A model generated the notes under the pieces. It ran no database searches and was not told the origin of the DNA. It saw only the letters and a list, made by a program, of their open reading frames with translations. The translations under genes and the position numbers were made by a program. Shown one piece after another: positions 6,944 to 64,000 of a stretch of 64,000 nucleotides of DNA. The stretch is taken from NCBI GenBank assembly GCA_005222965.1, contig NJBG01000001.1, positions 270,323-334,322 on the forward strand. The letters are read 5' to 3'. Source of the DNA: Candidatus Woesearchaeota archaeon B3_Woes. Lineage in GTDB: Archaea; Nanobdellota; Nanobdellia; Woesearchaeales; B3-WOES. Each line of letters opens with the position of its first letter. Position 1 is the stretch's first letter.

Positions 6944-7439
6944 TTTAAAAAAGAGGCTCAAGAAAAAAGGTTGGACCAACAACGACATAAACAAAGCAGT
7001 TGCAATTATTAAACACGGGAAAAATAAAAGATCAAAAAAAATTCTTTTTCTTGATTCTATAACCTATTGGATGATATGGTTTGTTGCTTTAATAGGCAAT
7101 TTTGTAATTTCAATAATATTCATACCTTTTCTTTTGATTATGCAAGGATTTAAACTCTATGTTATAATATTAGCTGTTGGTCTTGCGTTTGGTGCTTTTT
7201 TTAATCTTTTAATAAGGGAAATTGAGAATAAAGATATAATTATTGAAGGTATCTTTTTATTGGTATTAACAGTCATAAATATCATTCTAATAGTCAAATT
7301 TTCTAATTATTTGCAGCAAAACATAGGATTAAATAATGTTCAACATAATCCTTTGTTTGTTGGAATTGTCTATTTGTTTGCTTTTCTTCTACCATCTGCT
7401 ATAAAAAGTTTAATGATATATAAAGAAGAAAATAAGTAA
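6936..7439 (+). CDS. Small multi-spanning membrane protein with N-terminal helical motif
   Basis: Function unknown. The first 35 residues are a basic helical segment, LKKRLKKKGWTNNDINKAVA, which closely resembles the repeated cytoplasmic motif at the C-terminus of the giant surface protein at 8268-19583 (for example LKSKGFSQKIIDNAI). About four hydrophobic segments follow (near 44-70, 75-95, 103-122 and 140-158) with short loops, so the helical motif should sit in the cytoplasm. The start lies inside the end of the previous gene, and coupling to that paralogue pair is likely. An intron-containing tRNA-Arg follows 55 bp downstream. Confidence 0.68.
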   Translation: MNDLKKRLKKKGWTNNDINKAVAIIKHGKNKRSKKILFLDSITYWMIWFVALIGNFVISIIFIPFLLIMQGFKLYVIILAVGLAFGAFFNLLIREIENKDIIIEGIFLLVLTVINIILIVKFSNYLQQNIGLNNVQHNPLFVGIVYLFAFLLPSAIKSLMIYKEENK

Positions 7440-7494
7440 TTCTACTCTAATATGTAAAAACATTTATAAATTACTAACTTTCTCTTTACGCTAT

Positions 7495-7624
7495 GGCCCC
7501 GTAGCCTAGCCTGGATAAGGCGACAGAAAATAATTAAATTTATTTTTCGCTAGAGCCTTCTAAGCTTTTGCTAAGAAGAAGCCAGGAAAGCTGTAGACCG
7601 AGGGTTCAAATCCCTCCGGGGCCA
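7495..7624 (+). tRNA. tRNA-Arg (anticodon TCT) with two introns
   Basis: The acceptor GGCCCCG pairs with CGGGGCC, the D arm GCCTAGCCTGGATAAGGC is intact, and the T arm is GAGGGTTCAAATCCCTC with discriminator A. The middle is 55 nt too long. Removing one 29-nt insert inside the 5' anticodon stem (about 7516-7544, near tRNA position 29/30 or 30/31) and one 26-nt insert at canonical position 37/38 (about 7552-7577) restores a perfect ACAGC-CTTCTAA-GCTGT stem-loop and a 75-nt tRNA. The first insert can itself fold (AAAATAA against TTATTTT). The second has a GCTT/AAGC helix flanked by bulges, as in a bulge-helix-bulge site. Exact splice points are ambiguous by up to 3 nt because of short repeats at the junctions. 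Confidence 0.88.
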
Positions 7625-7635
7625 TTTTATTAATC

Positions 7636-7706
7636 GGGAGTATGGCCAAGTAGTAAGGCAAGCGGCTGCAACCCGCTGATCGAGGGTGCAAATCCCTCTA
7701 CTCCCT
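7636..7706 (+). tRNA. tRNA-Cys (anticodon GCA)
   Basis: The acceptor GGGAGTA pairs with TACTCCC. The anticodon stem-loop AGCGG-CTGCAAC-CCGCT shows GCA, and the T arm is GAGGGTGCAAATCCCTC. The discriminator is T, the usual identity base for tRNA-Cys. It lies 11 bp after the tRNA-Arg and is probably co-transcribed with it. It has no intron and no CCA. Confidence 0.95.
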
Positions 7707-7849
7707 TATTTTTCCTAAAGTGGACTTATTATTTAAATTTGAGAAAAATCAATAAAATTGCAATTTTATTAAAAAAATTTAAATTAATGAATTATAAATC
7801 TTATGAATTCTAAATATATATTTCTTACTATATTCTACAAAATACAAAG
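7707..7849. other. AT-rich spacer with a 20-bp palindrome
   Basis: No gene is seen here. It holds a perfect palindrome, AATAAAATTGCAATTTTATT, at 7751-7770, followed by seven A residues. This could be a terminator-like hairpin for the tRNA pair or another protein-binding site. A second AT-rich promoter-like stretch, TAAATATATATTT, lies near 7811-7823. Confidence 0.5.
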
Positions 7850-7885
7850 CTTTATATACTATTTTATCTGAATATCAGATAAAAT
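7850..7885 (+). promoter_or_regulatory. Promoter core plus outer operator of AbrB locus 1
   Basis: The TATA-like box CTTTATATACTATT occupies 7850-7863. A 25-bp perfect inverted repeat overlaps its end at 7861-7885, with half-site ATTTTATCTGA on each side of an ATA centre. Transcription should start about 25 bp downstream of the box, inside or just past the palindrome, so a bound protein would block initiation. The same 14-nt core occurs at 56291-56304, with a different palindrome starting at the same +11 offset. Confidence 0.75.
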
Positions 7886-7957
7886 AGTTGAAAGTTCAAA
7901 TAAAGAGCTAAAATTCATACAAAAACAAGGATATTCCATATATTATACATTCAGATG

Positions 7958-7980
7958 TTTTATCTGAATATCAGAATAAC
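7958..7980 (+). promoter_or_regulatory. Inner operator copy abutting the AbrB start codon
   Basis: The 18-nt core TTTTATCTGAATATCAGA (7958-7975) is identical to 7862-7879 in the outer operator. Only the right arm has decayed. It ends 5 bp before the ATG at 7981. A second TATA-like stretch, ATATATTATACAT, lies at about 7938-7950, so this copy may control a second promoter or sit in the 5' leader. Confidence 0.7.
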
Positions 7981-8271
7981 ATGAAAAAGTATCCAAAAAT
8001 CGTACAATGTGATAAGAGGGGTCAGATAGTAATACCCAAAGATATAAGGAGGGACCTAAAAATTGATGAAGGTACAGGTTTTTGGATGTATTCTGTCACA
8101 AACGAAGGAATTCTTCTCAAAAAAATTGATATTCTGCCATTAGACGAAAATGAAGAGATGTTAGATGAAATCGAATCAAAATCAGACAAACTAAAAATCA
8201 AAAAATCAAATGTTTCAAACTCAGTTAAAAAATACAAAAAAACAAAAGATGGAAATTTAGAAGTAATATGA
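7981..8271 (+). CDS. SpoVT/AbrB-domain transcriptional regulator
   Basis: Likely DNA-binding autoregulator of this locus. Residues 4-50 form a swapped-hairpin AbrB/MazE-type domain: KIVQCDKRGQIVIPKDIRRD, then LKIDEGTGFWMY and a strand ending GILLKKID. The rest (about 52-96) is an acidic then Lys-rich tail without recognised domain; it may serve for protein contacts. Two copies of an identical palindrome core lie directly upstream, one over the expected transcription start and one beside this ATG, which is what autoregulation by an AbrB dimer or tetramer would need. Its stop overlaps the giant surface-protein start by 4 nt (ATGA), so the two are translationally coupled. No MazF- or PIN-type toxin is adjacent, so an antitoxin role is unlikely. 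Confidence 0.85.
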   Translation: MKKYPKIVQCDKRGQIVIPKDIRRDLKIDEGTGFWMYSVTNEGILLKKIDILPLDENEEMLDEIESKSDKLKIKKSNVSNSVKKYKKTKDGNLEVI

Positions 8272-11200
8272 AGAAGTCAAACGCTAAAATAAGAATTGTA
8301 CCGATTTTCCTAATAATTGCAGTTCTTCTATCACTAACTATCTCCTCTGAATTAAATAGAGAAATAACCATAAAACTTGAATTTAGTAATTCAACAAATT
8401 ATGATTTAGATAATGATGGTATAGAAACAACAAGAGGGGTTGTAGATTTAACAGTTGAAAACACAGAATTTAATTGGAATGTCGATCAAACAAAACTTTT
8501 AACAAAATGGACAATTACTAATGAAGATACTTTAACTACCACTGATATTTGCTATGGAAACGAACAAGGATGTGCATTTATTGATTTAGTAAGTTCATCA
8601 AAAAAATGGAATGATTTATTCTATGTAAACTATGGTAAAGATGGTGCTGGTTACAATAATATAGTATCAACTAAAATCATTTATTATGATGTTGATATAT
8701 CTACTAACCTAGTAGAAATCTATAATTCAAAAGAAGTTGAAAAAGATGTTAAATTTTATGAAGATGTTTCTACTTCATTATCTGACTTAAAAGTTATTGT
8801 TAAAGATAAACAAAAAAGAAGTATTGGACATCACAAAATCACAAAAAACAAAGGGGATTATGATTTAGTAATATCTAACAAAAAACCATCATTAGGACTA
8901 AGAACAGCTTCATCAACACAAGAAACATCTTTAAAACCAGAATCAAAAGTTAAAATAAACAAAATAAGAAAGATAGAAAATGTAGAAGCTATAATAGACG
9001 ATCCATCTGAAAAAGAGATTACAACAGATATAATAGCAATTAATGCTTATACTTTAGAATTTGAAAATGCAGAAATAACCCTAGCAAAACAAAGTGATGT
9101 TAGTGTAATTATGCGTTGTGAAAACTTTGACTTTGAAAATTCTGTTTGTGAAGATTGGCAGCCAACAAACATTCAATTTACAGATGATGGAGATGTAATT
9201 AGATTTAATGTTACTGGATTTAGTGCTTATGGTGGAGGAAATATAACAATCTTAAATGTTCATAGCTACCCTCCGTTATATGGAAACTGGACTGTTAGGT
9301 TTAACACAACAGGTAAAGCAGACTTAACAATCAGAGCTGTAAACGGAACAACCTGGACCAACATATACGATGTTGGTTCTGGTTATGATCTTAAATTCCT
9401 AGAATTCAAATGCGGAGATGAAATATTAAATTATGACTGGGTAAATGATTCAATAGTTATTCAAAATTATTCTTGTCCTGAACTTAGTTATGAAACCCAA
9501 AAAGAATTAACAACAGGAGAACATATATTAGAATTTACATATGGCAACCAAAAAGCTTTTGCTTATAATAATGTTTCAGAAGTAAGTTTTACTCCTGCGT
9601 CTGATGTTTATATTGGTGAGGCTCTTCAAGTTGATTATCAAGGAGATGATGAGTGTGCAGATGTAACTCTAGATCCTGAAGGAGCGTGTGCTGCCGACCC
9701 TGTTAGTGCTTGTACTGTCGCTCTAGTTACAACTCCTGATCTCCTTCCTGGTGTGTGTACTGTTATATATTATGATACAGATGACTCGGGTAGCGAATCA
9801 ATTAGTATTGGAAGAAGGGTGATGACGCTTACAGCAGGTTCTAATCCTCTTGAATTGGGTTCTTCTACTACTGTAACTACAGCAGATCCTGATGCTTATT
9901 GTGTATGGTCAGATTCAAATTGTACTACGCCCACTGTTCTTAGTAATTATCCAACAGATGGTACTTGTACTTGGACCATAACAGCAAACCAAGTTGAATT
10001 GGATACTTGCAGTATTAATGTTAGTGATTATTATGATTATGCTGCTAATGATTCTTTCATACTTCAAATTAGAGATACAACATCACCATTAAACGATATG
10101 TCAATAAATGCTTATGATACTCCAGGAGATCAATGGGAAGACGGAATAACTATAAATTGGAATTTATCATCTTCTTCTGATGTTTATAATTATATTCTTA
10201 GAATATCTAATGGTTCTGCATCAAATGGTATGGAGATTTTAAACACAACAGATACTTCTCAAACTAGTTTTACTAACCTTGTTAATCGTACTAATAGGAC
10301 TGAAGTAAATTATTATTATAGTATCCAGGCTTGTGATATTTATAGTAATTGTAATACTGAATTATGGACAGGTCCAGTTAATATAAACGCACAACCAATT
10401 CAAAACTTAACAAAAATAACAAATATGGCTGGAAATAACACACAAGAAAAAGAAGATAGTATAACAACAGATATAGCAGGGAACACATCAGATACGTGTG
10501 ATGAGGACGCTTTAACAAAAATAACACAACCTTTATACCAATGGTGCGCTCCAGATGAATATAAGATATGTATAGATGCTTTTAGTAATGTAACAGATAA
10601 TTATTCAAGAACTATTACATGTAATATAGCTGAAGTTAATACTACAACATCAAATGATCTAAAATGTGTTGGAATAGCTTATGACAGAGATCTTGAAGAA
10701 GTAACAATGGATTATAATATTACTATTCTTGAAACTTATGCAAGAGGGAGTACTTCTTTTTTAAGTGGTACAGCTACGGATTGTATTTACCATTCTGAAG
10801 ATGTGTTTGGATGGCAGAATAGGTATGATTTACCAGCTGGATCTACTTACTGTTTTGTAGATATTCCTTCTAGTGACACGAGTAAAGGAGATAAAATTAT
10901 TTGTACTATGACCCCTTATGATACAAAAGAATATGGAGATAGTATGCACAGCAATACTACTTATGTAAGAAACACAGCACCATCTTCATATGCAGGAGAT
11001 ATAACACCTTCTGCTCCAAATGAATCTTCTACACTCACTTGTAATTATATCTTTACAGATATTGATACTGATGAAGAAAATGTTTCTGAAGCACAATACG
11101 AATGGTGGATACAAAATGAGGGAGATCCACTTAATGACTTTATAAAAATACCTGACCCATATAATGAATCAACTCTATCATCAATATTTGATAAAGATGA

Positions 11201-17200: not shown

Positions 17201-19583
17201 AACAGTGGATACTCCTTTAATAAACTCTAGTGCTTCAGAAAACAGAAGCAATGAAAGTTTAAATTGTTATGTACAATCAGCATCAGATGATGATAATGAC
17301 ACTCTAAATTACACATATAAATGGTATAAAAACAATATATTAAATACAACAACAGATAACACAAATATATCATATGGTGTTTTGGGTTCTGGAAACACCT
17401 CAAAAGGAGAAAATTGGACATGTAGTGTGATACCTTATGATGGAGAAGAAAATGGTACAGCCAAGAACAGCACACAATTAACAATTGTAAATACTGGACC
17501 AGAATTTAGCGCAACAATAAGTAATATTTCGTGGTCTAAAAATACAGATTATACAATGGACCTAGATAATTATTTCTCAGATATTGATAGTGAGAATTTA
17601 ACATATAATTATACTAGTGTTACAAGTATAACTGTAACCATAAATCAAATCACAAACGTTGTTACACTTACACCAGATAATAACTTTGTAGGAATTAAAT
17701 CTATAAGATTTAATGCTACTGATGGAGAATATTGGACTGGTTACAGTAATCTTGTTACTTTAAACGTAACAAATAGTACTATTAATATTACTCTAAATAG
17801 TCCAGTAAATTATTATAATTCATCAGCTGCTTCGATTAATTTCAACTGTTCAGCTAACATTATTAGTGGAGATAATAATTTAACAAATATAACATTAAAT
17901 ATATGGAATTCATCTGGATTATATTATACAGATACAAATACTTCAATTGGTGCAAATTCAGGAAATTCAACTAACAGTACATTTAATGCTACAATATCAT
18001 CAGATGGAGATTACACATGGAACTGCCAAGCGTGTGACAATGGAAGCGAATGTACATCTGATGAAGAGAGTTATCAATTTACAATGGATACAACATATTC
18101 AATAATAACTTTCTCAAGTGGAACAGAAAACAACTTTACAAACGTTTCAAGAACATGGATTTATGCAGATGTAAATGTAACTGAATTAAATGAAAAGAAT
18201 ATAACATTTAGTTTGTATAATGATACATCTGGTTTAATATTGGATAACACAAGTTATACAACAGCGCAAAGATCTATAAATTGGACAGGATTATCAAATG
18301 GAAGTTATAGTTATAATGTTACTGTATGTGATTATGTTGATTATTGTAATACAACAGAAACCAGATTAATTATTTTAGATACGACTCCACCAGACGAAAT
18401 TACAGGATTGGTAAATACAACACCAACTGAATCATCAATAAATTTAAGTTGGGCTGCTGCAACAGATAGTGGTTCTGGTGTTGCAAAATATCTTGTTTAT
18501 AGGAATGATACAAACATTATTAATACAACTGTAACAACATATAATGATACAACTGTAAATAGTTCAAGTACTTATATATATAACGTATCTGCTATGGATT
18601 ACGCAGGAAATGAAGGTTTACTAGATAATATAACCGCGAACACATCAGCAGATGTTACAGCACCAGTCATAAGTAATATTGCAAATAGCTCTATAACAAC
18701 ATCTGGAGCAACAATCACTTGGTCAACTGATGATTATGCTAATTCCACTGTTTATTATGGAACCAATAGTTCAAATTTAGATTCAACAAGTGGTAGTTCA
18801 ACTCTAACAAAATCTCATTCAATAACGTTAGGATTAGACCCAGGTACAACATATTACTACCAAGTTAATTCATCTAATAGAGAAGGTTGGGCAACAAATT
18901 CTACAATATATAGCTTTACAACAGCATCTAGTGGAGGATCATCCACAGGAGGGGGAGGTGGGGGAGGAACCACCACTATAATTACTTCTTCAGTCGAAGA
19001 AGGAGTAGAAGAACCAAAACCATTAGAAGTAATATATTTACCAAAAACTCCCAAAGAAGAAGAGAAAAAATCTCCACCTAAAAAACCAACACCAAAGCCA
19101 AAAGTTAAAGAAGATATCCCTCCAGAAAAAGAAGGAGATTTACTTACATATGCTATATCAGCGTTCATAACAATTGCATTAATTGGTGGATTGTTTATGA
19201 AAGAGAGAATGAGAATTAACTACATGAACAACCAACCAGAACTAAAACTGCAAGGTTTCATAAAGAAAGCGAAAACAAAAGGATATAAAATAGATGACAT
19301 AAGAAAAATCCTTGTTTCAAAAGGATGGCCTTCACACTTAGTTGACACAGCAGCATTACATGATCCAATATCTGGGCTATTGAAAAAAGGACACAACCAC
19401 ACAATGATAAGAGAAGTACTAAAAAGCAAAGGATTTAGTCAGAAAATAATCGATAATGCAATACTACATAACCACATAAACAAGGAACTTAGGAAGAGAA
19501 GAAGCGTAAAAAGCATAAGAAATGAATTACTCAAAGCAGGATGGACTAAAAAAATAATAGATAAAAAACTTCCTGCTAAATAG
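8268..19583 (+). CDS. Giant exported surface protein, 3771 residues
   Basis: Probable cell-surface adhesin or S-layer-associated protein. A signal peptide spans residues 1-27. An N-terminal region with CYGNEQGCAFIDL and NYGKDGAGYNN (about 95-135) is paralogous to the giant protein at 56.5 kb. Then come many Ig-like or fibronectin-like beta domains crowded with Asn-X-Ser/Thr sequons, including three tandem 216-225-residue units at about 1327-1985. A fibronectin III domain lies near 3372-3463 (TPPDEITGLVNTTPTESSIN), and a phosphatase-N-terminal-like beta domain near 3464-3553. A Gly-rich and then Pro/Lys-rich linker leads to one transmembrane helix at about 3624-3645. The last 125 residues are cytoplasmic and carry three copies of a KGW/KGF-xxxx-IxxxA helical motif. 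It is coupled to the AbrB gene by a 4-nt overlap. The open frame is unbroken despite its length. Ligand unknown. Confidence 0.85.
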   Translation: MKKSNAKIRIVPIFLIIAVLLSLTISSELNREITIKLEFSNSTNYDLDNDGIETTRGVVDLTVENTEFNWNVDQTKLLTKWTITNEDTLTTTDICYGNEQGCAFIDLVSSSKKWNDLFYVNYGKDGAGYNNIVSTKIIYYDVDISTNLVEIYNSKEVEKDVKFYEDVSTSLSDLKVIVKDKQKRSIGHHKITKNKGDYDLVISNKKPSLGLRTASSTQETSLKPESKVKINKIRKIENVEAIIDDPSEKEITTDIIAINAYTLEFENAEITLAKQSDVSVIMRCENFDFENSVCEDWQPTNIQFTDDGDVIRFNVTGFSAYGGGNITILNVHSYPPLYGNWTVRFNTTGKADLTIRAVNGTTWTNIYDVGSGYDLKFLEFKCGDEILNYDWVNDSIVIQNYSCPELSYETQKELTTGEHILEFTYGNQKAFAYNNVSEVSFTPASDVYIGEALQVDYQGDDECADVTLDPEGACAADPVSACTVALVTTPDLLPGVCTVIYYDTDDSGSESISIGRRVMTLTAGSNPLELGSSTTVTTADPDAYCVWSDSNCTTPTVLSNYPTDGTCTWTITANQVELDTCSINVSDYYDYAANDSFILQIRDTTSPLNDMSINAYDTPGDQWEDGITINWNLSSSSDVYNYILRISNGSASNGMEILNTTDTSQTSFTNLVNRTNRTEVNYYYSIQACDIYSNCNTELWTGPVNINAQPIQNLTKITNMAGNNTQEKEDSITTDIAGNTSDTCDEDALTKITQPLYQWCAPDEYKICIDAFSNVTDNYSRTITCNIAEVNTTTSNDLKCVGIAYDRDLEEVTMDYNITILETYARGSTSFLSGTATDCIYHSEDVFGWQNRYDLPAGSTYCFVDIPSSDTSKGDKIICTMTPYDTKEYGDSMHSNTTYVRNTAPSSYAGDITPSAPNESSTLTCNYIFTDIDTDEENVSEAQYEWWIQNEGDPLNDFIKIPDPYNESTLSSIFDKDDIIKCSVKVKDIDEGWLNRPLFDDHYVNSSSTVTIIDNAKPQIIDFNDTSNITIPTTLGEIVQFDVKWVDYEDPGESAQMYVCDSTIDQQSMGVIGTTNYTMIGWNNLNNSMANMTYYANSSGDYVETIAIRPDSFTNATDGDRNAKGSTWGDTTDYVYDLYAFEVDEIGDRINTSGQGALQPIAEDHNNAFVMGSYNYIKLQYNSQPLPNKIIAILMCIDPDDTNNLYCEGSSSNLQSLQINATSATTSDYYINVSNGTGGTGNIGKLYKEADIKINYKSVSNGSTSNTGCVGTEYCHTDLSTDNTVSCNYTTLETDSNGSNTYYTKACDDGDACSVYRQGTFFVNEKPEMNWTNLTTTDNTEYFNFTNDAHLNCSYDWAYDEWKKNSRFNFTFKWYLNRGGVFTLYNTLSNQSNLTSGNTQEGDQWICEVTPNDGFVDGIPKNSSIRSIGGSGSQGDGTPEILSVIDNSNLTNPTTAGENITFEITWTDSNSSQIYVYICNSTGVSVTGCTDAFYWKEIHTLTSDNPVNVTFVANESWSTTPQPNQTANIYIYDETWLASPVYKENFTINIKPEMNWTNLTPEARNDSESIIDSDYLNCTYERAYDIWNGSAFTFTYKWYYNRTGSFELFNIPSETSIIASNNTQNGDQWICEVTPNDGFVDGTSMNSSTRSIGTSIGRTDGIPEIINIIDNSNTSYPTQNGSSITFEINWTDSNSSTLNGVYICNSTDVNPSGCLGYEFGRATNTSDNPLSITFTYNQSVNTTYVYIYDNTNINSSVYTENFTINYPPELNWVNLTTTNNTGGGFLNFTDDANLNCTHNASSDSLTNGSIDYTYKWYRDRTGTFTFFSTPSTQQVVSNGETEPGDQWICEVTPNDGFIDGTPTNSSSRIIEGSTSTDGIPDITNVIDNSNYSDPTTEGASINFQIYWTDSNSSILNNVFICNTSDVNPTGCLGYKFGEATSTSSNPVSITFIANESWETNQSTYIYLYDDTGINSSVYKENFSVNHRPNATISVDYISSSSLQCKISAFVDEDGDDINNSLSEFRWWLNDTLQATTTENLTYVEIPENTFKCAARIYDNRSLSSLDYIESIDFYGTDIIIAPIVQSLPEAVSSIPIYITGYINKSNKNLNTTAIALQEYGAPFVTTTNSLTGNSTLNGSTISADNFAAGLNYTAVYDGEESIFSANHYIRFANHDRHSFLRYNITSKVDLFGKWKINLNESLTSSVSKFEEIYVYNSSKPTGWFNISLNLFQGDNEIKVKGYENVSQNVTLTGIATTFNIYFDNQTPQINISLIQLSSNDNIHTINFRVTDDFKINLSTLLLNITNGTYNVTHRYDSLIYYNESWNWGNNINCSGNNTLKDCNVTLNLEDGNYTMTLSVNDSVNNQNITTITTYLIDSTKPTAPSVYAKAIQNSTNLSLVWKSPSSNMVSAQYSVGTDKYPNSGWYSVINWTNVSENTSYKMIDSNNNNYHDDNETIIISADYNLSSDDIVNRTGYAALNNFLNGTEMFNDSNNNHLFESNDWIVYDSDSDGIYNNVSDTILYGNNSLPNGSTLLNFTINITYSDENQDSNYSVGEAIVMDNNTNLELDVGLLNGSGNDTVIVNGTADMFNPLKTVNLSLINHNFYYVNVRYKNDENLFYSLVGSSLIIKYKTTTSGTTEQQDNYTGPSAVIVYATAQSATRNLTANWTESIDDRYNISYYQYSIGTAKYPSSGWNSIVTWTNNSVNRTATYNSSEYTDGTYYYWNIKAINEIGNESNVNSSEGTLFHDQIPPILTLLQVANDTNGSDGWLDNLNDNSTEIRVQGDENMTCFVSPYDKWYTDYNSDDDVWCAPNSSINMTCNITDVNVAEVDNYTYHIVCKDNLDLPNGHNTSQNLDVTFEVDWPTSPEVRNLTVWMYYPNMTLRGNAKNLSNTTYTNEILKCNSTYYDQDGDNLTNETWAWAINGTVYIDNANTSQLNLSVNGSKGDNITCFYNVTDSSNMTSITYNYTVYINNTKPTVDTPLINSSASENRSNESLNCYVQSASDDDNDTLNYTYKWYKNNILNTTTDNTNISYGVLGSGNTSKGENWTCSVIPYDGEENGTAKNSTQLTIVNTGPEFSATISNISWSKNTDYTMDLDNYFSDIDSENLTYNYTSVTSITVTINQITNVVTLTPDNNFVGIKSIRFNATDGEYWTGYSNLVTLNVTNSTINITLNSPVNYYNSSAASINFNCSANIISGDNNLTNITLNIWNSSGLYYTDTNTSIGANSGNSTNSTFNATISSDGDYTWNCQACDNGSECTSDEESYQFTMDTTYSIITFSSGTENNFTNVSRTWIYADVNVTELNEKNITFSLYNDTSGLILDNTSYTTAQRSINWTGLSNGSYSYNVTVCDYVDYCNTTETRLIILDTTPPDEITGLVNTTPTESSINLSWAAATDSGSGVAKYLVYRNDTNIINTTVTTYNDTTVNSSSTYIYNVSAMDYAGNEGLLDNITANTSADVTAPVISNIANSSITTSGATITWSTDDYANSTVYYGTNSSNLDSTSGSSTLTKSHSITLGLDPGTTYYYQVNSSNREGWATNSTIYSFTTASSGGSSTGGGGGGGTTTIITSSVEEGVEEPKPLEVIYLPKTPKEEEKKSPPKKPTPKPKVKEDIPPEKEGDLLTYAISAFITIALIGGLFMKERMRINYMNNQPELKLQGFIKKAKTKGYKIDDIRKILVSKGWPSHLVDTAALHDPISGLLKKGHNHTMIREVLKSKGFSQKIIDNAILHNHINKELRKRRSVKSIRNELLKAGWTKKIIDKKLPAK
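12246..14221 (+). repeat. Three tandem domain-length repeats inside giant protein 1
   Basis: Units begin at about 12246, 12921 and 13569, each about 650-675 bp. Each encodes ExNWxNLT, LNCxY, YKWYxNRTGxF, GDQWICEVTPNDGF and WTDSNSS in the same order. The stretch coding for QWICEVTPNDGFVDG is nearly identical in DNA in all three (around 12477, 13149 and 13804), so the duplication is recent or maintained by gene conversion. Unequal crossing-over could change copy number. Confidence 0.85.
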
Positions 19584-19618: not shown

Positions 19619-20395
19619 ATGGCAAAAATATTGTTCAAAAAAGAAAAAAAAGAGTTTGTCAAGGATTTAAACAAAGAGATAACCCTCTCCAGACAAAGAT
19701 TCTTCTATGTTTTTGATACTGATAAGGAGTTTATAACAGAAGATGGCAAAATAGATAAAAAAGACCTAAAGAAAAAAGATGGAAGCACCATAAAAACTAA
19801 TAAAGATAAAGAATTTATTATATTCTCAACAACTTTTATAGACGATTTCAAAAGGATTAAAAGAAAAGCTCAAATAATAACACCAAAAGACATTGGAATT
19901 ATAATAGCTGAAACAGGCATTAACAATAAAAGTAAAGTTGTTGATGCTGGTACTGGCTCTGGGGCTTTAGCTTGTTATTTAGCTCATATATGTAAAGAAG
20001 TTACAAGTTATGATATAAGAGATGATTCAATAGAAACAGCTAAAGAGAATAAAAAATTCTTAGACTTAAAAAATTTAAAAATAAAGAAGAAAAGCATCTT
20101 TAAAGGAATTGATGAAAAAGAGTTAGACTTAATTGTTCTAGATATACCAGATCCATGGAATGCAATAAAATCTTGTGAAAAATCACTAAAAATTGCAGGA
20201 TACCTTGTTGTATACCTTCCTTCAGTTTCTCAAATATCTGATTTTGTAAATGAAATAAAAAAATATAATGGTTTTGTCTATCTAAAAACAACTGAATTAA
20301 TCGAAAGACACTGGAAGATTGATGGAAGAATTTCAAGACCAAAATCAGGAGCACTAGGCCATACAGGATTCTTAAGTTTTGTTAGAAGAATTTAG
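19619..20395 (+). CDS. trmI: tRNA (adenine-N1)-methyltransferase, TrmI family
   Basis: Archaeal TrmI methylates N1 of adenine 57 and 58 in the T loop of tRNA using S-adenosylmethionine. The 258-residue protein has a short N-terminal beta domain and then KRKAQIITPKDIGIII, which introduces the Rossmann fold. Motif I is VVDAGTGSGALACYL near residue 108, and motif IV is LDIPDPWNAI near residue 175. The C-terminal block has ERHWKIDGRISRP and HTGFLSFVRR, typical of the family. It follows the giant protein by 35 bp containing a TTTATATTA box and starts essentially leaderless. Its last 24 bp overlap the end of the convergent glmM gene. Confidence 0.9.
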   Translation: MAKILFKKEKKEFVKDLNKEITLSRQRFFYVFDTDKEFITEDGKIDKKDLKKKDGSTIKTNKDKEFIIFSTTFIDDFKRIKRKAQIITPKDIGIIIAETGINNKSKVVDAGTGSGALACYLAHICKEVTSYDIRDDSIETAKENKKFLDLKNLKIKKKSIFKGIDEKELDLIVLDIPDPWNAIKSCEKSLKIAGYLVVYLPSVSQISDFVNEIKKYNGFVYLKTTELIERHWKIDGRISRPKSGALGHTGFLSFVRRI

Positions 20396-56290: not shown

Positions 56291-56313
56291 CTTTATATAC
56301 TATTAGTACTAAT
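56291..56313 (+). promoter_or_regulatory. Promoter core plus outer operator of AbrB locus 2
   Basis: CTTTATATACTATT at 56291-56304 is identical to 7850-7863. The perfect 12-bp palindrome ATTAGTACTAAT covers 56302-56313, starting 11 bp after the first base of the core, exactly as at locus 1. The palindrome sequence itself is unrelated to that of locus 1. Confidence 0.72.
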
Positions 56314-56345
56314 TAAGGTATAATTAAGTATTTAATTAATAATAT

Positions 56346-56357
56346 ATTAGTACTAAT
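56346..56357 (+). promoter_or_regulatory. Inner operator copy abutting AbrB2 start codon
   Basis: Second exact copy of ATTAGTACTAAT, directly followed by the ATG at 56358. It lies 44 bp from the outer copy, about four helical turns, so both could be held on the same DNA face by one oligomer. Confidence 0.72.
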
Positions 56358-56516
56358 ATGGTAAAAGTTGTAGTAAATAATGGACAGTATAAGATAACTA
56401 TTCCTAAAGAACTAGCTCTAGCTAAAGGCTGGAATAAGAAAACAATTCTAAGATTTGTTGAAGATCAAGATGGAAATATCATATTGAAAGAGGTTAAACT
56501 AAAGAAAAACGAATAA
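56358..56516 (+). CDS. Minimal SpoVT/AbrB-domain regulator, 52 residues
   Basis: Small AbrB/MazE-fold DNA-binding protein. It reads MVKVVVNNGQYKITIPKELA, then LAKGWNKKTILRFVEDQDGN and IILKEVKLKKNE. This is one complete swapped-hairpin unit with nothing else, without the acidic tail of the regulator at 7981. Two exact palindromes flank its leader, one at the promoter and one touching the ATG, consistent with self-repression. A giant surface-protein frame follows immediately and partly overlaps it. No toxin gene is present. Confidence 0.82.
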   Translation: MVKVVVNNGQYKITIPKELALAKGWNKKTILRFVEDQDGNIILKEVKLKKNE

Positions 56517-56586
56517 GGCAAAAAAAATAACGGAAAATAGAATAATTACAATAGCAGCTCTACTAACAGTTATCTTTGGCTTCTTT

Positions 56587-59500
56587 ATGATAAAGGCCTC
56601 TATAACTGGTTTTGTTGTTTTTGAAGGAGATAATATTTATACAGATGAAGTTGATATTAATATTATTTCTGATACTTTCTACACTTGGATACCTAATCAA
56701 GAAGGCCCATTAATATCCTTAGGAATTTCAGGATATCTAGAAGGAGATTCTGCTGAAGTTTATTTAGGAGATAAACTAATTTATTCCTCAGGTAAATTAA
56801 ATAGAACTTCTGTTACGGTTAGTAATGGTTCTGGAGAGATTTTACTTGAATTTAATTATGGTGATAATGAAGGTTATGACAACAATAATGATGGTGTTAG
56901 TTATATAGAAAATGTAATTGATTATGAAGTTAAAGGTATATTTGATTTTGATGTTAATTATTCTAAATTATGTACAAAATATGTTGTTAATAACTTAGAT
57001 GATAATTTAAGCCAACCTGTTTGTTATGGTGATAGTGAATGTTGTAGTTTCCTTAATTTAGAATCTAAGAATGATTTGTGGAATGATAGTTTGTATTTGA
57101 ATTATGGTAAGTATAGTGCAGGTTACAACAATTCTGTATTAGCTCAAATTATTTATTATGATGTTAGTTTAAACGAATCTGATTTACACTCTTACATATA
57201 TAATTCTGAACTTAAGAAATTAGATGCTAATTTTGTAGATAGGATTTACTTTAACATAGAATGTGTTGATACTTGTTCATTACCTTCTTATTCAGATGAA
57301 TTTTATGATTTAGAAGTTAAAGTTGATGGTTTAGTGCATATATCTAATGTTAGTTATAGTTTAGAGAAAGTTGAAAAAGTCGATATTACTACAACAGTTT
57401 CTACAAAACAATATGATGCTGTTCTAGGAAAACCAGTTAAATGGCAAAAAAATATTAAAGTAAACATTAAGAAGAATAAAGTATTAAACAACTTAACAAT
57501 CGATGTTCCTAGCATAGCTGAAAATATTTCTGTCAATAAAATAGATGCTAAAAAAGGAACACAAAGAGAAGTTTCTGTTAAAGAAGATAAAAAATTAGAG
57601 AAATTAATTAAAAAAGATAAAAAGCTTATTATCGAAGAAGAAATAAAAAATGAAGATGAAGTTATTGTAGAATACTACACAACTGCTCCTTATTCTGAAG
57701 AACAGATTATAGATGATAAAAGTAAAGAAATAATTATAATTGGGCCAGAAGAAGTTCATTATGAAAATGTCTCAGTATCAACTAATCTCCTTATTGAAGT
57801 TAGTGATATTAGCAATGTAAAACTCTATTGGATAATTAATGAAAGCAAAGAACTAGTTAGTTTTGAATCTTATGATTTAGATGGAAATGGATTATATGAC
57901 AATATTGGATGGGTTGTTCCTCACCTATCCAATCAAACTTATGAATTAATAATTGAGATAACTAAAGCAGAGCACTTGGACGAGAATAAAACTTTCATCT
58001 CTGATATTTATGAAGAAGTAAAAGAGTTAGATGATGTTTGGAGTGAAACAATTCCTTCAGAAGATTATGTAAGAGTAACTTTTGAGAAAGAATTAGATTC
58101 TTCAAGAGATATAACAATTTATCCAAGAATTGTTAGTGGAACCCCAAGAATTGAAGTTTATGAAGTTGATGGAACAGAACTAATTGCTGAATTTACTAAT
58201 ATTAATTCAGAGGAGTATAATAAAGTTTATCTAACCAATCTTCAAGGAAACCAAGATACTTTTGATTTATTAATATTAGATGGAAGTATTGAAATTGATC
58301 ACATTATTGATCCAACAGAAATATTTTATGAAGATTTTGAGAGTGGGGGATTTGCTACAAATTGGACACAAGATGCTCAAGCAGATTGGTTTGAGGAAGC
58401 AGTTATATCACAATGTGGGGCATCAAAATCTGCAGGAGTTCAGTTTTCAACAGACGCATGGTTACAGACTAAAAATAATTTTTCTTTAGACAGTTATGAT
58501 GATGCAGAATTATCAGCAGCATTATATATTGATGGTTCTTTTATTGCTGGTGAATATCTTTGTATGGATTATTCATGTAATGGTGGAGTTAGTTGGAATA
58601 GAAATGCTACGCAGACAGATGGTGGTGTAGGAGGATTATGTCAGGATGCTACTTTTGATCCACTAGATAGTTGGAGAAATGTTACATTAAATATAACTTC
58701 TGCATGTGGTGTTTTACCATCAAACTTTAAAGTAAGATTTAGGCACTTTGCTGGTAATAAGGATTATGGATATGTTGATTGTGTAAATATAAGTGCTACA
58801 GAAGGAATACAAGATAACAATTACCCAATCTTCTCAAATTACAATGAAAGTCCTGTAAACAACACAGCGTATGTCCAGGGAGCAGACTATAAATTTAATG
58901 TTACTATAACTTCTACGAATGGGACAGCTGGTCTAGACTTTAATGGAACAAACTATACAGCAACTAATATATCAAGTGTATTTAATGTTACTATTAATGA
59001 TTTAGCAGCAGGAGATTATAGTTATTATTGGTGGTCATATGGAAATGGAACAAGCAATAACCCTAATTCATCTGAAACAAGAGGTTATACTGTTGCAAAG
59101 GCAACAGGACAAGTTACATTATACGTGAACAATTCGGAAAGTAACGTAACAATATTTGTAGGAGATAGTATATGGTTGAATGCTACTTTAACAACAGGAG
59201 ATACAGGAAATTTATATTTGTATAATAATGGAACACTAATCAACAATGGAACTTCACCAATCTCAAATGATACACAATTTAATAGTCCTGGATTATATAA
59301 TATATCTGCTTATTATGTTGGAAGTCAAAATTATACAAGTGATTGGTCTTTAACTTGGTGGGTTAATGTAACTGATAATACTCCGCCATATTTCACAGAC
59401 AACACTCCACAAAATCAAACTATAACTTATAATACAGCTTTAAGCTATGACATAAATGCAACAGATGGTGTAGCATTTGATTGTTTTGCTGTTAATGATT

Positions 59501-62500
59501 CAAAATTCAAAATAAATTGTAGTGGTTTTTTGGAAAATAACACATTTTTGTTGGTTAATATTTATTATTTGAACATTACAATCAATGATACATCTAATAA
59601 TCTAAATTCAACTATTATGTTTGTTAATGTTACTCAGGCAACACCAACCTTAACAAAATACCTTAATGGAACAGATGGTAATTTATCTATAACTTATCCT
59701 ACTCAAGTAAATGCTTCTGCTTCTACAACAGGAGGAACTGTAAATATTTATAGAAACGGAACAGAAGTTACAGGTCAAAACAATCAAAATGTCCTTCTTG
59801 CAGCAGGATATTATGAATATGAGTTTAATGTTACAGGAAACCAGAACTACACAGATTTGAGTAGTGTTTTCTTATATGCAAATATTTCAAAAGCAGCTGG
59901 AGAAGTTTTCATGTACATCAATGGTTCAAGAGCAAACTTTACAACTACAAATGCAAGTTCCAAAAATATTTGGTTAAATGCAACTTTAAATTCAGGAACA
60001 GGGGATATAGAATTATGGCTTAATGGGACCCTTTACAATAGTGGTCCTTCACATCTTTCAAATAAAACCAATCTATCAATTGGATTTTATAATGCAACTT
60101 CTGTTTATTCTGGTAATACTAATTACAGTTCTGATACTGAAGTGTGGTGGATTAATGTAACAGTTGCTGTAGCAGACAGTCCACCAGATGTTAGTATAAT
60201 TTATCCTCAAAATATAAATTATAATATAAATGTGAGTGACTTGAATTACACAGCTTCCGATGATATAAATGTGAGTGCTTGTTGGTATAATAATGGTACG
60301 ATAAACTCAACTCCAGATCCAACTTGTTCAAATTTTACAGGTTTAAATTCAAATGAAGGAAATAATACATGGACTGTTTATGTAAATGATACTGAAGGAC
60401 AGGAAAATTCAGATAGTGTGACTTTTTTTAAAGATACAATTTATCCTTTAATAGAATTTGTATTTCCTACAACTGCTGAAGGAAATTACTCTCAAAATTA
60501 TATTACTGCAAATGTAACAGCGACAGATGATAATTTAGATACAATTACAGTTTACCTGTATAATTCAACAACCTTAGTAAATTCTTCAGAAAATTCTACA
60601 TCTCCATTATTTATTAATTTTACAAACTTAAATGATGGAACTTATTACTTGAATGCAACTGTGAACGACACAACGAATAATGAAAACCAAACAGAAAAAA
60701 GGACAATAATTTTAGACGCAACTCCTGTAATAATTTCAAACTTCCAATTTATAGCATTAAACTCTTCAAAAGCTCAAATAGGAACTGATGAAACAGCATT
60801 CAATTTTTCTAATTTAAAAGACATAGAATATATGAATATAAGTTTTACATTAACTGATGGTTCTGGAATAGAAGGAGATATTAAAATATACTTCACAGCT
60901 AATGGAACAAGTGCTTGTTCATTAGGAAATAATCAATCAACTACCTGTTATAATTTTGATTCAGGATCATGGATAGAATTTCAAAATAACACAGATACTT
61001 CAACATTCAGAGACATAGGAGGTTCTGCACAAGGAGATTCAATTAATTGTTTGTATACAGGAAGCTCAACCCAAAGAAATTATACTTGCCAAATAGATGA
61101 GCATTACAATCCAAATGTATGGAAGCATTATCCTCTTAATTTTTCAGATGCAAAGTGGCAATCATTATCAAGTGAAAGAATAAACAAAGGTAATATTTGG
61201 AAAATAGAACTTGATACTTCAAATATTCCTTTGGATGCAGATTTTTGTAAATTAGATTTTAGAGTAAATGCGACTGTAGGAACAACCCCAACACAACAAA
61301 TTTTGGCTTATATGTGTAACTCAACATATACAACAGGCGACCCATCTGTTTCTTCTTATTGTCAGTTAGTTGCAGGAAAATCACCAACAGATTTACAAGA
61401 TGATGGCACAAAATTTAGGGGGTTATTTGCAAAAAACCTGGCAAGCTCTTTAGGAGATATAAAATATGTTTTAATAACATCAGATAGCCCAACATCAAAA
61501 TATTACTCTATGAAAACTTATGGATTTTTAGGTAGTGATTCAGTAAGAACAAGCATAAGCAATAATGGAGGAAGTTCATATACTCCTTTATCTGATGGAT
61601 ATGAAACAGAATTAAATATAAACTGGTTTTATGATTCAACTGATTCAAATTTAACACAAATGGTCTTTAAGATTTATTCTAATGATACTTATGGAAATGA
61701 TGCAAATTCATCTGAACAAATTATGACTTGGAATGTTGGAGAATTAAATCAACCACCGATTGTAGACACAATTGTGCCAGAAATAGGCTCAAATCACCTA
61801 GGAACTATAGAGATAAATTGGACAACAGCAGAGCCAAATGGAGATAGTTATTTAACAAATGTCACTGCAAACAATGGAACAACCATTGAAAACATTGCCT
61901 TGAATTTAGCAGATTCAATCTCTAACACAACTTGGGATACAACAACTGTTTCTGATGGTTTGTGGAATCTTACTGTGGAGAGTTGTGAGAATTCAACAAG
62001 TGATTTATTTTGTGGAAATGATACTCATCAAATTAGGATTGATAATAATCCACCAGATGTTAGTATAATTTATCCAGAAAGCAAGTCATATGCTGGTGAT
62101 GTAACTGACTTAAATTATACAGCTTCTGATGATGGTATACTAGATAGTTGTTGGTATAATAATGGTACAATAAATTCAACTCCAGATCCAACTTGTTCAA
62201 ATTTCACAGGTTTAAATTCAAATGAAGGGTCTAATACATGGACAGTTTATGCTAATGATTCAACAGGGCAGGAAGGTTCAGTTAGTGTAACTTTCATCAA
62301 AGATACTACAAATCCTTTAGTAACTGGTTTAACAGAAAACCCTCTTGATTCGCCAACATATGTTCAGGGGGCAACATATGAATTTAATGCAACAGTTATA
62401 GATAATATAGATGTTGATACTGTTTTATTAGATTTCAACGGAACAAATTATAATGCAACAAATATTACTGAAAATATTTACAACGTTACTATCATAGATC

Positions 62501-64000
62501 TTGCAGTAGGAACCTATAATTATGAATGGTATGCAAATGATACTGTTGGAAATATTAATAACACTGAAACTGGAACTTATACAGTTAACAAAGCAATACC
62601 AACCGGAACTTTAACAAGCTCAGGTGGTTGGACAATTGATTATGGAACTCAAACAACAATAAACTATTCTGAATCTAATAACGGAGATTCTGGTGTTGTT
62701 TATAACATATATAGAGATGGTGTTGATAAAACAGGTGGAGAAACAGTTACACTAGCTGCAGGAAATTATAGTTATGTATTGAACACAACCGGAGGAACTA
62801 ATTATACATCTAATTCAAGTATGGATAATAAAACATTAATTGTTAGTCAAATAGCTTCACAAACAAATCTAACATTTGATTTAGCCACTCCTCAGACTTA
62901 TGGCACATCTATTACTCCAATATGTTCTGTTATAACAGGAGTAGGAACATCTGTTTTAAAGGTAAATGGAACAACAATAACATCTGGAAATCCAATAACT
63001 CTTGGATCTGGAACATGGAGCTTTAATTGTAGCTTAGCAGAAACACAAAATTATACTTATTCACAAAATACTTCAGACTTTACAATCGACCAAGCAACAC
63101 CTCCTTTAAATTTAACAATAACACCAAGTGCTTCTGTTAATTACCCAACACAAACCACTGCAAATGGTTCAGGATGTCCATCACAATTAACTTGTAACTT
63201 ATATAGAAATGATACAGGAAGTGTTGATGAACCAAATGTTGTAACATTGGGTGCAGGAAGTTATAATTATACATATAATACTTCAGGAAATGCAAATTAT
63301 ACAAGCTATAGTGTTTCAGATATTTTGATAGTTAATCAGGCAATACCTACAGGAAATTTAACAAGTTCAGCAGGCTGGACAATAGAAGAAGGAACACAAA
63401 CAACAATAAATTATTCTGAATCTAATAACGGGGATTCTGATGTTGTTTATAAAATTTATAGAGATAATACAGATATTGGTTCTAATGAAACATGGACACC
63501 ATCATTAGGGACTTATAGTTATGTCTTAAATACAACAGGAGGAACCAATTATACTTCAAATTCAAGTATGGATGCTAAAACACTAACTGTTCAAGATAAT
63601 ACATATCCTTTAATTTCAATTGTCTATCCTTCAAATAATTCATATTCATCAGATACAGAATTATATATTAACTATAGTTTTACAGAAACAAATCCTGGTT
63701 TTTGTTGGTGGACTAATAATTCTGGGGTAAACAACTATTCTTTAGCTACTTGTGGAACAAATATAACAACAGAAACATGGAGTGAAGGCGCACATACTAT
63801 AATTATTTATATAAATGATACAAGTGGGAATGAAAATTCAAGTTCTGTAACATTTACTATTGATACTTTTAATCCTTTATTAACAATTGTTGAGCCACAA
63901 AGCATTACATATACAACTTCATCATTAACTATAAATTACAGTGTTTCTGATGATAATTTAGATAGTTGTTGGTATACAGATGATAATGGAGAAACAAACA
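56587..64000 (+). CDS. Giant exported surface protein 2, 3' end beyond window
   Basis: The frame stays open from 56503 to the right edge, about 2,470 codons so far. The first conventional start codon is ATG 56587, used here, but it lies inside what reads as a signal peptide: codons from 56518 give AKKITENRIITIAALLTVIF and then GFFMIKASITGFVV. The likely native start is one codon before that, at 56515, where AAG stands. The N-terminal region with CYGDSECCSFLNL and NYGKYSAGYNN is paralogous to giant protein 1. A Cys-rich jelly-roll-like domain lies at about 58320-58800 (FEDFESGGFATNW). Then come many short Ig-like repeats rich in Asn, Ser, Thr and Tyr with dense sequons. Probably a glycosylated surface protein or adhesin controlled with AbrB2. 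Confidence 0.8.
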   Translation, partial: MIKASITGFVVFEGDNIYTDEVDINIISDTFYTWIPNQEGPLISLGISGYLEGDSAEVYLGDKLIYSSGKLNRTSVTVSNGSGEILLEFNYGDNEGYDNNNDGVSYIENVIDYEVKGIFDFDVNYSKLCTKYVVNNLDDNLSQPVCYGDSECCSFLNLESKNDLWNDSLYLNYGKYSAGYNNSVLAQIIYYDVSLNESDLHSYIYNSELKKLDANFVDRIYFNIECVDTCSLPSYSDEFYDLEVKVDGLVHISNVSYSLEKVEKVDITTTVSTKQYDAVLGKPVKWQKNIKVNIKKNKVLNNLTIDVPSIAENISVNKIDAKKGTQREVSVKEDKKLEKLIKKDKKLIIEEEIKNEDEVIVEYYTTAPYSEEQIIDDKSKEIIIIGPEEVHYENVSVSTNLLIEVSDISNVKLYWIINESKELVSFESYDLDGNGLYDNIGWVVPHLSNQTYELIIEITKAEHLDENKTFISDIYEEVKELDDVWSETIPSEDYVRVTFEKELDSSRDITIYPRIVSGTPRIEVYEVDGTELIAEFTNINSEEYNKVYLTNLQGNQDTFDLLILDGSIEIDHIIDPTEIFYEDFESGGFATNWTQDAQADWFEEAVISQCGASKSAGVQFSTDAWLQTKNNFSLDSYDDAELSAALYIDGSFIAGEYLCMDYSCNGGVSWNRNATQTDGGVGGLCQDATFDPLDSWRNVTLNITSACGVLPSNFKVRFRHFAGNKDYGYVDCVNISATEGIQDNNYPIFSNYNESPVNNTAYVQGADYKFNVTITSTNGTAGLDFNGTNYTATNISSVFNVTINDLAAGDYSYYWWSYGNGTSNNPNSSETRGYTVAKATGQVTLYVNNSESNVTIFVGDSIWLNATLTTGDTGNLYLYNNGTLINNGTSPISNDTQFNSPGLYNISAYYVGSQNYTSDWSLTWWVNVTDNTPPYFTDNTPQNQTITYNTALSYDINATDGVAFDCFAVNDSKFKINCSGFLENNTFLLVNIYYLNITINDTSNNLNSTIMFVNVTQATPTLTKYLNGTDGNLSITYPTQVNASASTTGGTVNIYRNGTEVTGQNNQNVLLAAGYYEYEFNVTGNQNYTDLSSVFLYANISKAAGEVFMYINGSRANFTTTNASSKNIWLNATLNSGTGDIELWLNGTLYNSGPSHLSNKTNLSIGFYNATSVYSGNTNYSSDTEVWWINVTVAVADSPPDVSIIYPQNINYNINVSDLNYTASDDINVSACWYNNGTINSTPDPTCSNFTGLNSNEGNNTWTVYVNDTEGQENSDSVTFFKDTIYPLIEFVFPTTAEGNYSQNYITANVTATDDNLDTITVYLYNSTTLVNSSENSTSPLFINFTNLNDGTYYLNATVNDTTNNENQTEKRTIILDATPVIISNFQFIALNSSKAQIGTDETAFNFSNLKDIEYMNISFTLTDGSGIEGDIKIYFTANGTSACSLGNNQSTTCYNFDSGSWIEFQNNTDTSTFRDIGGSAQGDSINCLYTGSSTQRNYTCQIDEHYNPNVWKHYPLNFSDAKWQSLSSERINKGNIWKIELDTSNIPLDADFCKLDFRVNATVGTTPTQQILAYMCNSTYTTGDPSVSSYCQLVAGKSPTDLQDDGTKFRGLFAKNLASSLGDIKYVLITSDSPTSKYYSMKTYGFLGSDSVRTSISNNGGSSYTPLSDGYETELNINWFYDSTDSNLTQMVFKIYSNDTYGNDANSSEQIMTWNVGELNQPPIVDTIVPEIGSNHLGTIEINWTTAEPNGDSYLTNVTANNGTTIENIALNLADSISNTTWDTTTVSDGLWNLTVESCENSTSDLFCGNDTHQIRIDNNPPDVSIIYPESKSYAGDVTDLNYTASDDGILDSCWYNNGTINSTPDPTCSNFTGLNSNEGSNTWTVYANDSTGQEGSVSVTFIKDTTNPLVTGLTENPLDSPTYVQGATYEFNATVIDNIDVDTVLLDFNGTNYNATNITENIYNVTIIDLAVGTYNYEWYANDTVGNINNTETGTYTVNKAIPTGTLTSSGGWTIDYGTQTTINYSESNNGDSGVVYNIYRDGVDKTGGETVTLAAGNYSYVLNTTGGTNYTSNSSMDNKTLIVSQIASQTNLTFDLATPQTYGTSITPICSVITGVGTSVLKVNGTTITSGNPITLGSGTWSFNCSLAETQNYTYSQNTSDFTIDQATPPLNLTITPSASVNYPTQTTANGSGCPSQLTCNLYRNDTGSVDEPNVVTLGAGSYNYTYNTSGNANYTSYSVSDILIVNQAIPTGNLTSSAGWTIEEGTQTTINYSESNNGDSDVVYKIYRDNTDIGSNETWTPSLGTYSYVLNTTGGTNYTSNSSMDAKTLTVQDNTYPLISIVYPSNNSYSSDTELYINYSFTETNPGFCWWTNNSGVNNYSLATCGTNITTETWSEGAHTIIIYINDTSGNENSSSVTFTIDTFNPLLTIVEPQSITYTTSSLTINYSVSDDNLDSCWYTDDNGETN
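60181..60450 (+). repeat. Internal repeat A, copy 1, giant protein 2
   Basis: It begins CCACCAGATGTTAGTATAAT and includes a stretch coding CWYNNGTINSTPDPTCSNFT. It matches 62050-62319 closely at the DNA level. Confidence 0.82.
62050..62319 (+). repeat. Internal repeat A, copy 2, giant protein 2
   Basis: Same 270-bp unit as 60181-60450, about 1.87 kb downstream. Synonymous positions in the CWYNNGTINSTPDPTC part are almost all identical, which suggests recent duplication or gene conversion. A partial third copy begins near 63940 at the window edge. Confidence 0.82.
62594..62844 (+). repeat. Internal repeat B, copy 1, giant protein 2
   Basis: A 251-bp unit coding an Ig-like domain with TINYSESNNGDSGVVYNIYR and NYTSNSSMDNKTL. 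It matches 63341-63591. Confidence 0.82.
63341..63591 (+). repeat. Internal repeat B, copy 2, giant protein 2
   Basis: Same length as copy 1 (251 bp), 747 bp downstream. It codes TINYSESNNGDSDVVYKIYR and NYTSNSSMDAKTL. Together with repeat A this points to repeated domain duplication inside one gene. Confidence 0.82.

Follow-up and report, generated by a model that had tools for sequence, protein, structure and literature searches.

A 20-bp phased array of candidate AbrB sites in the leader of an abrB-surface protein operon of Woesearchaeota

The abrB-giant locus and its regulator gene

The stretch of DNA analyzed (64,000 nucleotides of Candidatus Woesearchaeota archaeon B3_Woes, contig NJBG01000001.1; referred to here as the window) carries a small abrB gene (its product is named AbrB96) followed by the gene of a giant exported protein, by GCD14 and by purine genes. 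The features of the locus are listed in Table 1. The abrB frame encodes 96 aa and shares the 4 nt ATGA with the next frame, as stated in the preliminary description. The giant protein has hydrophobic segments at about residues 8 and 3625.

Table 1. Features of the abrB-giant locus in window coordinates
Feature	Position	Strand	Remarks
tRNA-Cys(GCA)	7636..7706	+	5' neighbour; in some genomes of f28 and f55 also close to the abrB ortholog
TATA-box-like TTTATATA of the abrB-giant operon	7851..7858	+	equivalent TATA in most orthologs
Operator end 1, inverted repeat with 14-bp arms on either side of ATA	7858..7888	.	core TCTGA-ATA-TCAGA at 7867-7879
Candidate ladder rung TCAAA, degenerate, step 21	7896..7900	+	presumed from the register of relatives
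Candidate ladder rung TCATA, degenerate, step 19	7915..7919	+	presumed
Candidate ladder rung TCCAT, very weak, step 20	7935..7939	+	presumed
Ladder rung TCAGA, step 16, the sole irregular step	7951..7955	+	20 bp before the last site
Operator end 2, TCTGA-ATA-TCAGA	7963..7975	.	5 nt between site end and ATG
AbrB96: AbrB/SpoVT DNA-binding domain (residues ~7-51) and helical C-terminal tail, family unknown	7981..8271	+	
Giant exported surface protein, 3771 aa	8268..19583	+	signal anchor, N-x-S/T-rich ectodomain, C-terminal membrane segment, cytoplasmic tail
GCD14/TrmI-type tRNA methyltransferase	19619..20395	+	conserved 3' neighbour

The leader of the operon carries an inverted repeat whose perfect 14-bp arms (7858-7871 and 7875-7888) flank the spacer ATA, which is not itself palindromic. 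It had been described as a 25-bp perfect palindrome at the transcription start; the palindrome did not hold, owing to the spacer, while the position did, in that the repeat overlaps the start site expected from the TATA-like sequence. The 18-nt core TTTTATCTGAATATCAGA (7862-7879) recurs, as had been noted, beside the ATG of the abrB gene, in an identical copy 96 bp downstream (7958-7975). These two are the only exact copies in the 1.02-Mb genome, all remaining matches having 3 mismatches, and an exact 18-nt repeat appeared by chance in the window leader in 1 of 2000 Markov-1 simulations. Counted from the first TCAGA, steps of 21, 19, 20, 16 and 20 bp lead to TCAAA, TCATA, TCCAT, TCAGA and TCAGA. 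As a ladder of 20-bp rungs this copy is degenerate, with ends 96 bp apart rather than 100, weak interior rungs and one 16-bp step, and its lag-20 self-match (0.24) was barely the highest among the lags tried. The window copy alone is therefore unconvincing, and its reading as a ladder rests on homology with the relatives described below.

The tRNA was the sole Rfam match over 7400-8400, and a structured RNA at the leader was dropped on this ground. A probable intron-containing tRNA at 7497-7625 was missed by ARAGORN in bacterial mode.

AbrB96 matched TIGR01439 with 36.1 bits (curated cut-off 28.3) and PF04014 with 27.5 bits (cut-off 24.7; E 2.9e-6). Sequence matches in the PDB, the best being Bacillus AbrB and SpoVT, covered residues 7-51 only, leaving the C-terminal half without a solved counterpart at the sequence level. 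The AlphaFold monomer model (pLDDT 77) consists of the AbrB domain and helices at 58-66 and 75-85. Its closest structural matches were AbrB and SpoVT (E 0.003-0.01), and the one match over the whole length, a weak one, was to an integrative AbrB model. As modelled, AbrB96 probably has the swapped-hairpin fold of AbrB/SpoVT. Of the 353 genomes of the order, 41 have a clear full-length ortholog, one per genome. In a scan of 84,980 species representatives such orthologs were confined to entries labelled Woesearchaeota, Nanoarchaeota, Nanoarchaeia or plain 'archaeon', most relatives bearing the label Candidatus Woesearchaeota or Nanoarchaeota; outside these labels identities dropped to about 30-50% over partial length.

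Spacing and phase of the sites in relatives

The 41 ortholog loci were fetched blind to the content of their leaders. Nearly all of these leaders contain sites resembling TCTGA-NNN-TCAGA, located downstream of the TATA box and before the gene. As a rule one site is close to the TATA box, and another, further downstream, often abuts the start codon. The preliminary description had staked its proposal on an upstream palindrome in relatives, and this was borne out for the AbrB96 orthologs, at least two sites scoring at least 9/10 being present in 33/41 leaders.

The centre of the first site lies 18-21 bp from the TATA hexamer in 15 loci and 25-30 bp from it in 11 loci, a bimodal distribution with modes about one helical turn apart; the TTTAWA hexamer was absent in six loci. 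The spacing from TATA box to transcription start is established in archaea, and together with these distances it places the first site over or next to the expected start. Archaeal regulators bound at sites downstream of the TATA box, over start and leader, usually repress. If AbrB96 were an activator, its stacks recruiting the transcription machinery, it would have to act from just such sites, and we regard this as very improbable.

Adjacent sites scoring 9-10/10 were separated by 40, 57, 60, 61, 79, 80, 96, 100-102, 120-122 and 141 bp, and in one case by 171 bp. The Rayleigh R was 0.87 for the 34 adjacent spacings and 0.91 with one spacing per family (n=16, p about 2e-6), with a best period of 20.0-20.3 bp. 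Inside families the span shifted by about 20 bp, from 40 to 60 bp in f64, 80 to 40 in f55, 79 to 102 to 122 in f70, 80 to 102 in f36 and 101 to 120 in f82. Distances from TCAG to TCAG peaked at 20 (47), 40 (31), 60-61 (28), 80-82 (26) and 100-102 bp (15). Most control tetramers placed few distances in the 20-bp phase, the exceptions being ATCA, which overlaps the motif, and GTCA, which gave 4 pairs only. Relatives thus show a phased array and not merely the paired operators first proposed.

The interior of the leaders was analyzed in the same register. Between the end sites TCAG occurred 46 times against 8.3 +/- 2.5 expected from shuffles (5.5-fold), with 39 of the 46 in register, and CTGA 15 times against 2.9. 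With a step of 20, half of the interior slots (n=98) matched TCAGA at 4/5 or better; at other steps such matches made up 0-13% (12-18 and 21-28), 18% (30) and 29% (19), the slot walk tolerating +1 so that step 19 partly reads the step-20 register. Two independent operators, lying at the start site and at the start codon and perhaps joined through a DNA loop, with the interior half-sites incidental, would suit the window, where strong sites are found at both ends only, and spacing by whole helical turns suits looping. However, incidental half-sites would be expected neither to be enriched in 20-bp phase nor to form mostly near-perfect rungs, as they do in L047, L056 and L042, and we consider this explanation unlikely.

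In the rung profile only TCAGA (strongly) and the TCTGA 8 bp upstream of it (weakly) were conserved. Tandem duplication was ruled out as the origin of the 20-bp period, since conservation is limited to the 13-bp site and the sequence from rung to rung is not conserved. In 12/33 loci the two end sites have identical central triplets, compared to 5.0 expected (p=0.001, shared ancestry being included in this comparison). In L059 the variant TCTGAATATAAGA is common to both end sites and the ortholog has PKKIR instead of the PKDIR or PKEVR of most others; site and protein may possibly have changed together. The f81 orthologs (64-65 aa) are without the C-terminal tail and two of them have a site spacing of 57 bp, not 60 bp, which fits a role for the tail and, coming from one lineage only, is a weak hint.

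The sense-strand TCAG was better kept than its partner half (46 versus 15 in the interior), a bias that does not separate recognition in the mRNA leader from oriented stacking on DNA. Control at the RNA level, with AbrB96 or another factor reading UCAGA repeats in the mRNA 5' leader and setting translation, could draw on this bias and on the ladder often reaching the start codon. On the other hand, the end sites are palindromic, and both the strict 20-bp phase and the one-turn bimodality of the TATA distance fit DNA and not single-stranded RNA; since the first site overlaps the expected start, part of it would also be untranscribed. RNA-level control is in our judgement quite improbable.

Cargo genes and specificity of the site

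The gene following abrB overlaps it by 4 nt in 26/41 loci. Most of these downstream genes encode exported proteins, about 700-4565 aa in length. Many of the proteins are anchored at the N-terminus and have a membrane segment near the C-terminus, followed by a cytoplasmic tail. IRxxLxxxGWxxxxID repeats, possibly a docking motif, are found in the cytoplasmic tail of the window giant (19100-19583) and at the C-termini of L019, L021, L022, L034, L036, L039, L040, L045, L048, L050, L052 and L063; two loci encode instead a membrane protein of 255-257 aa, which retains the tail motif. Two tandem abrB genes, the second overlapping or abutting the first, lie between ladder and exported protein in f82 (L056, L057, L062), and in f36 (L039, L044) ladder and abrB are separated by a small ORF with a common HEYS...EWGC.M ending, about 43 aa long in L039.

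The preliminary description had the regulator dedicated to the giant protein, which proved too strong. In f55 the ladder and abrB are kept and the surface gene is missing, abrB lying directly before GCD14 in two f55 genomes, and two f70 genomes have a gene for a 463-aa soluble protein in the surface-protein position. In addition, none of 40 proteins elsewhere with the N-terminal domain of the window giant had AbrB upstream (some of the contigs end less than 1 kb from the gene), and a general partnership of AbrB with giant proteins was rejected. An antitoxin of the type II toxin-antitoxin class (MazE/VapB) was also rejected, since the neighbour of AbrB96 is the giant exported protein and no toxin, and most orthologs likewise precede exported cargo.

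The repeats of about 20 bp next to abrB, itself the gene of a small DNA-binding protein, recall the layout of iteron and par systems. A DNA maintenance array of this kind, an iteron-like origin or centromere with AbrB as its binding protein, nevertheless appears extremely improbable. The array is chromosomal, is syntenic with GCD14 (inside the fetched stretch at 23/41 loci) and in some genomes with tRNA-Cys, lies directly downstream of a TATA box and is present in 41/353 genomes only, and no replication or partition gene was found among the neighbours tested.

The specificity of the site was analyzed in several ways. A search of 371 genomes of the phylum for the pattern TCAGN16TCAGAN15TCAGA, made independently of AbrB, gave 5 matches, 3 of which are these leaders and 2 of which are G+C-rich sequences elsewhere. 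No lag-20 signal was found upstream of the TATA region or inside the cargo genes, and the leaders of seven other AbrB homologs (VapB-type, mostly followed by PIN-toxin-like genes) revealed no 20-bp signal. In 20 genomes TCTGAWWWTCAGA occurred mostly at abrB sites and elsewhere at about control frequency; six other places examined were inside or between ORFs and had no ladder. A global regulon of AbrB96 was rejected, TCTGAWWWTCAGA in these 20 genomes being near control frequency beyond the abrB leaders and, at the places examined, not lying in ladder-like promoters. The presence of the sites in nearly all ortholog leaders and their near absence elsewhere in the genomes support the earlier suggestion of self-regulation, which would act through private cis operators.

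The genome of the window has further AbrB genes. At locus 2 of the window (56302-64000) a 52-aa AbrB (56358-56516) with a twin palindrome ATTAGTACTAAT (56302-56313 and 56346-56357, 44 bp apart) precedes another giant, whose frame is open for 4095 aa in the genome; over the N-terminal domain it and the locus-1 giant are about 38% identical. The locus-2 giant frame has no ATG, GTG or TTG before the signal segment (region 56515-56590), ATA at 56527 being a candidate start unless there is a sequence error. The third AbrB gene (L006:1400-1740) comes first in its operon and is followed by genes for von Willebrand A-like membrane proteins. It has paired TTAATATTAA palindromes at a distance of about 27 bp and lacks an ATG start (candidate ATA at 1483). 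Inspected by eye, neither locus was accepted as the same ladder, the twin palindromes being of other sequence and not in 20-bp steps. At a further locus, L007 (1370-1903), AbrB is paired with a RelE-like protein and the TATA box is followed by just one palindrome, TAAGATAATCTTA, which is the ordinary toxin-antitoxin layout.

Proposed switch and comparison with known systems

We propose, with a probability of roughly 0.7, that ladder operator, abrB96 and giant surface protein gene form an autoregulated operon in which AbrB96 stacks cooperatively and represses. The anatomy of the sequence, its conservation and phase, the operon layout and the scarcity of sites elsewhere are observations; binding, its stoichiometry and cooperativity, repression and the role of the tail are parts of this proposal that we infer from sequence. 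AbrB96 dimers would recognise TCTGA-NNN-TCAGA and be anchored by the strong sites at the start site and the start codon. Half-sites repeated each 20 bp, or two helical turns, would lie on one face of the DNA, allowing dimers to stack side by side, probably via the conserved C-terminal tail. The stack would span the start region and the 5' leader and block initiation, elongation or both, the expected outcome being steep, threshold-like autorepression. Through the 4-nt overlap, production of the surface protein would be linked to repressor synthesis.

Bacillus AbrB and SpoVT, with which AbrB96 has the type of DNA-binding domain in common, are global regulators, whereas AbrB96 would have one local target. 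MazE and VapB resemble it as AbrB-type autorepressors encoded first in two-gene operons; their partner, however, is a toxin and not a giant exported protein, and the VapB-type leaders tested were without the ladder period.

The nearest working analogue of AbrB96 is MraZ. This small autorepressor of the AbrB-like superfamily is encoded by the first gene of the bacterial dcw operon and binds direct repeats past the promoter core, over the start site (PMC7761207, PMC8475190). The Burkholderia repeats are of 7 nt with 3-nt spacers, a 10-bp period, and no end palindromes are described (PMC7761207, PMC8475190). AbrB96 would likewise be a small repressor of the AbrB superfamily, encoded first in its own operon. 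The two differ in that MraZ has a 10-bp period and cell-division cargo, whereas here the period is about twice as long, the ends are 13-bp palindromes, arrays differ in length by whole rungs and the operon carries a giant surface protein as cargo. No dcw cluster was found after AbrB96, among whose neighbours are the giant protein, GCD14 and purine genes.

Two further archaeal and viral proteins are comparable. C68 of pSSVx, an archaeal AbrB-fold protein, binds its own promoter at a strong and a weaker site (PMC5569661). It has no C-terminal domain and no phased array is described for it, whereas AbrB96 has the tail and its relatives' leaders the ladder. For SvtR of SIRV1, a ribbon-helix-helix protein, polymerisation along the DNA has been proposed, beginning at a strong site and reaching into the promoter (PMC5569661); it is viral, its fold is unrelated and no 20-bp ladder is described. 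A cooperative self-repressor switch on a phased ladder, as proposed here, is a design of which we found no description.

Ladder span was also compared to protein length. In 21 loci with a complete surface protein the two correlated in an exploratory, post hoc comparison (Spearman 0.81). The correlation was 0.70 on family means (n=13) and r 0.73 (p 0.0002) on independent contrasts, the latter using a weak tree from the 96-aa protein that misplaces one locus, and it dropped to 0.39 when loci lacking the surface protein were counted as zero. It is conceivable, though doubtful at present, that AbrB stacks on 20-bp ladders represent a new operator class whose rung number evolution can adjust, with rungs being added as the controlled giant protein grows.

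The Woesearchaeota are tiny archaea that are uncultured as a group. To our knowledge, hardly any experiments have addressed transcriptional control in them or in DPANN archaea at large, and full-text searching of the literature for Woesearchaeota together with AbrB turned up no paper. In the present case the regulator, its probable site, the phase and the single target operon are all readable from sequence, which makes the idea testable in vitro. The orthologs provide a natural operator series of about 3 to 8 rungs, in which the scaling of cooperative binding with array length could be followed. The proposed switch would also give a handle on the timing of the costliest surface protein in cells thought to live attached to others.
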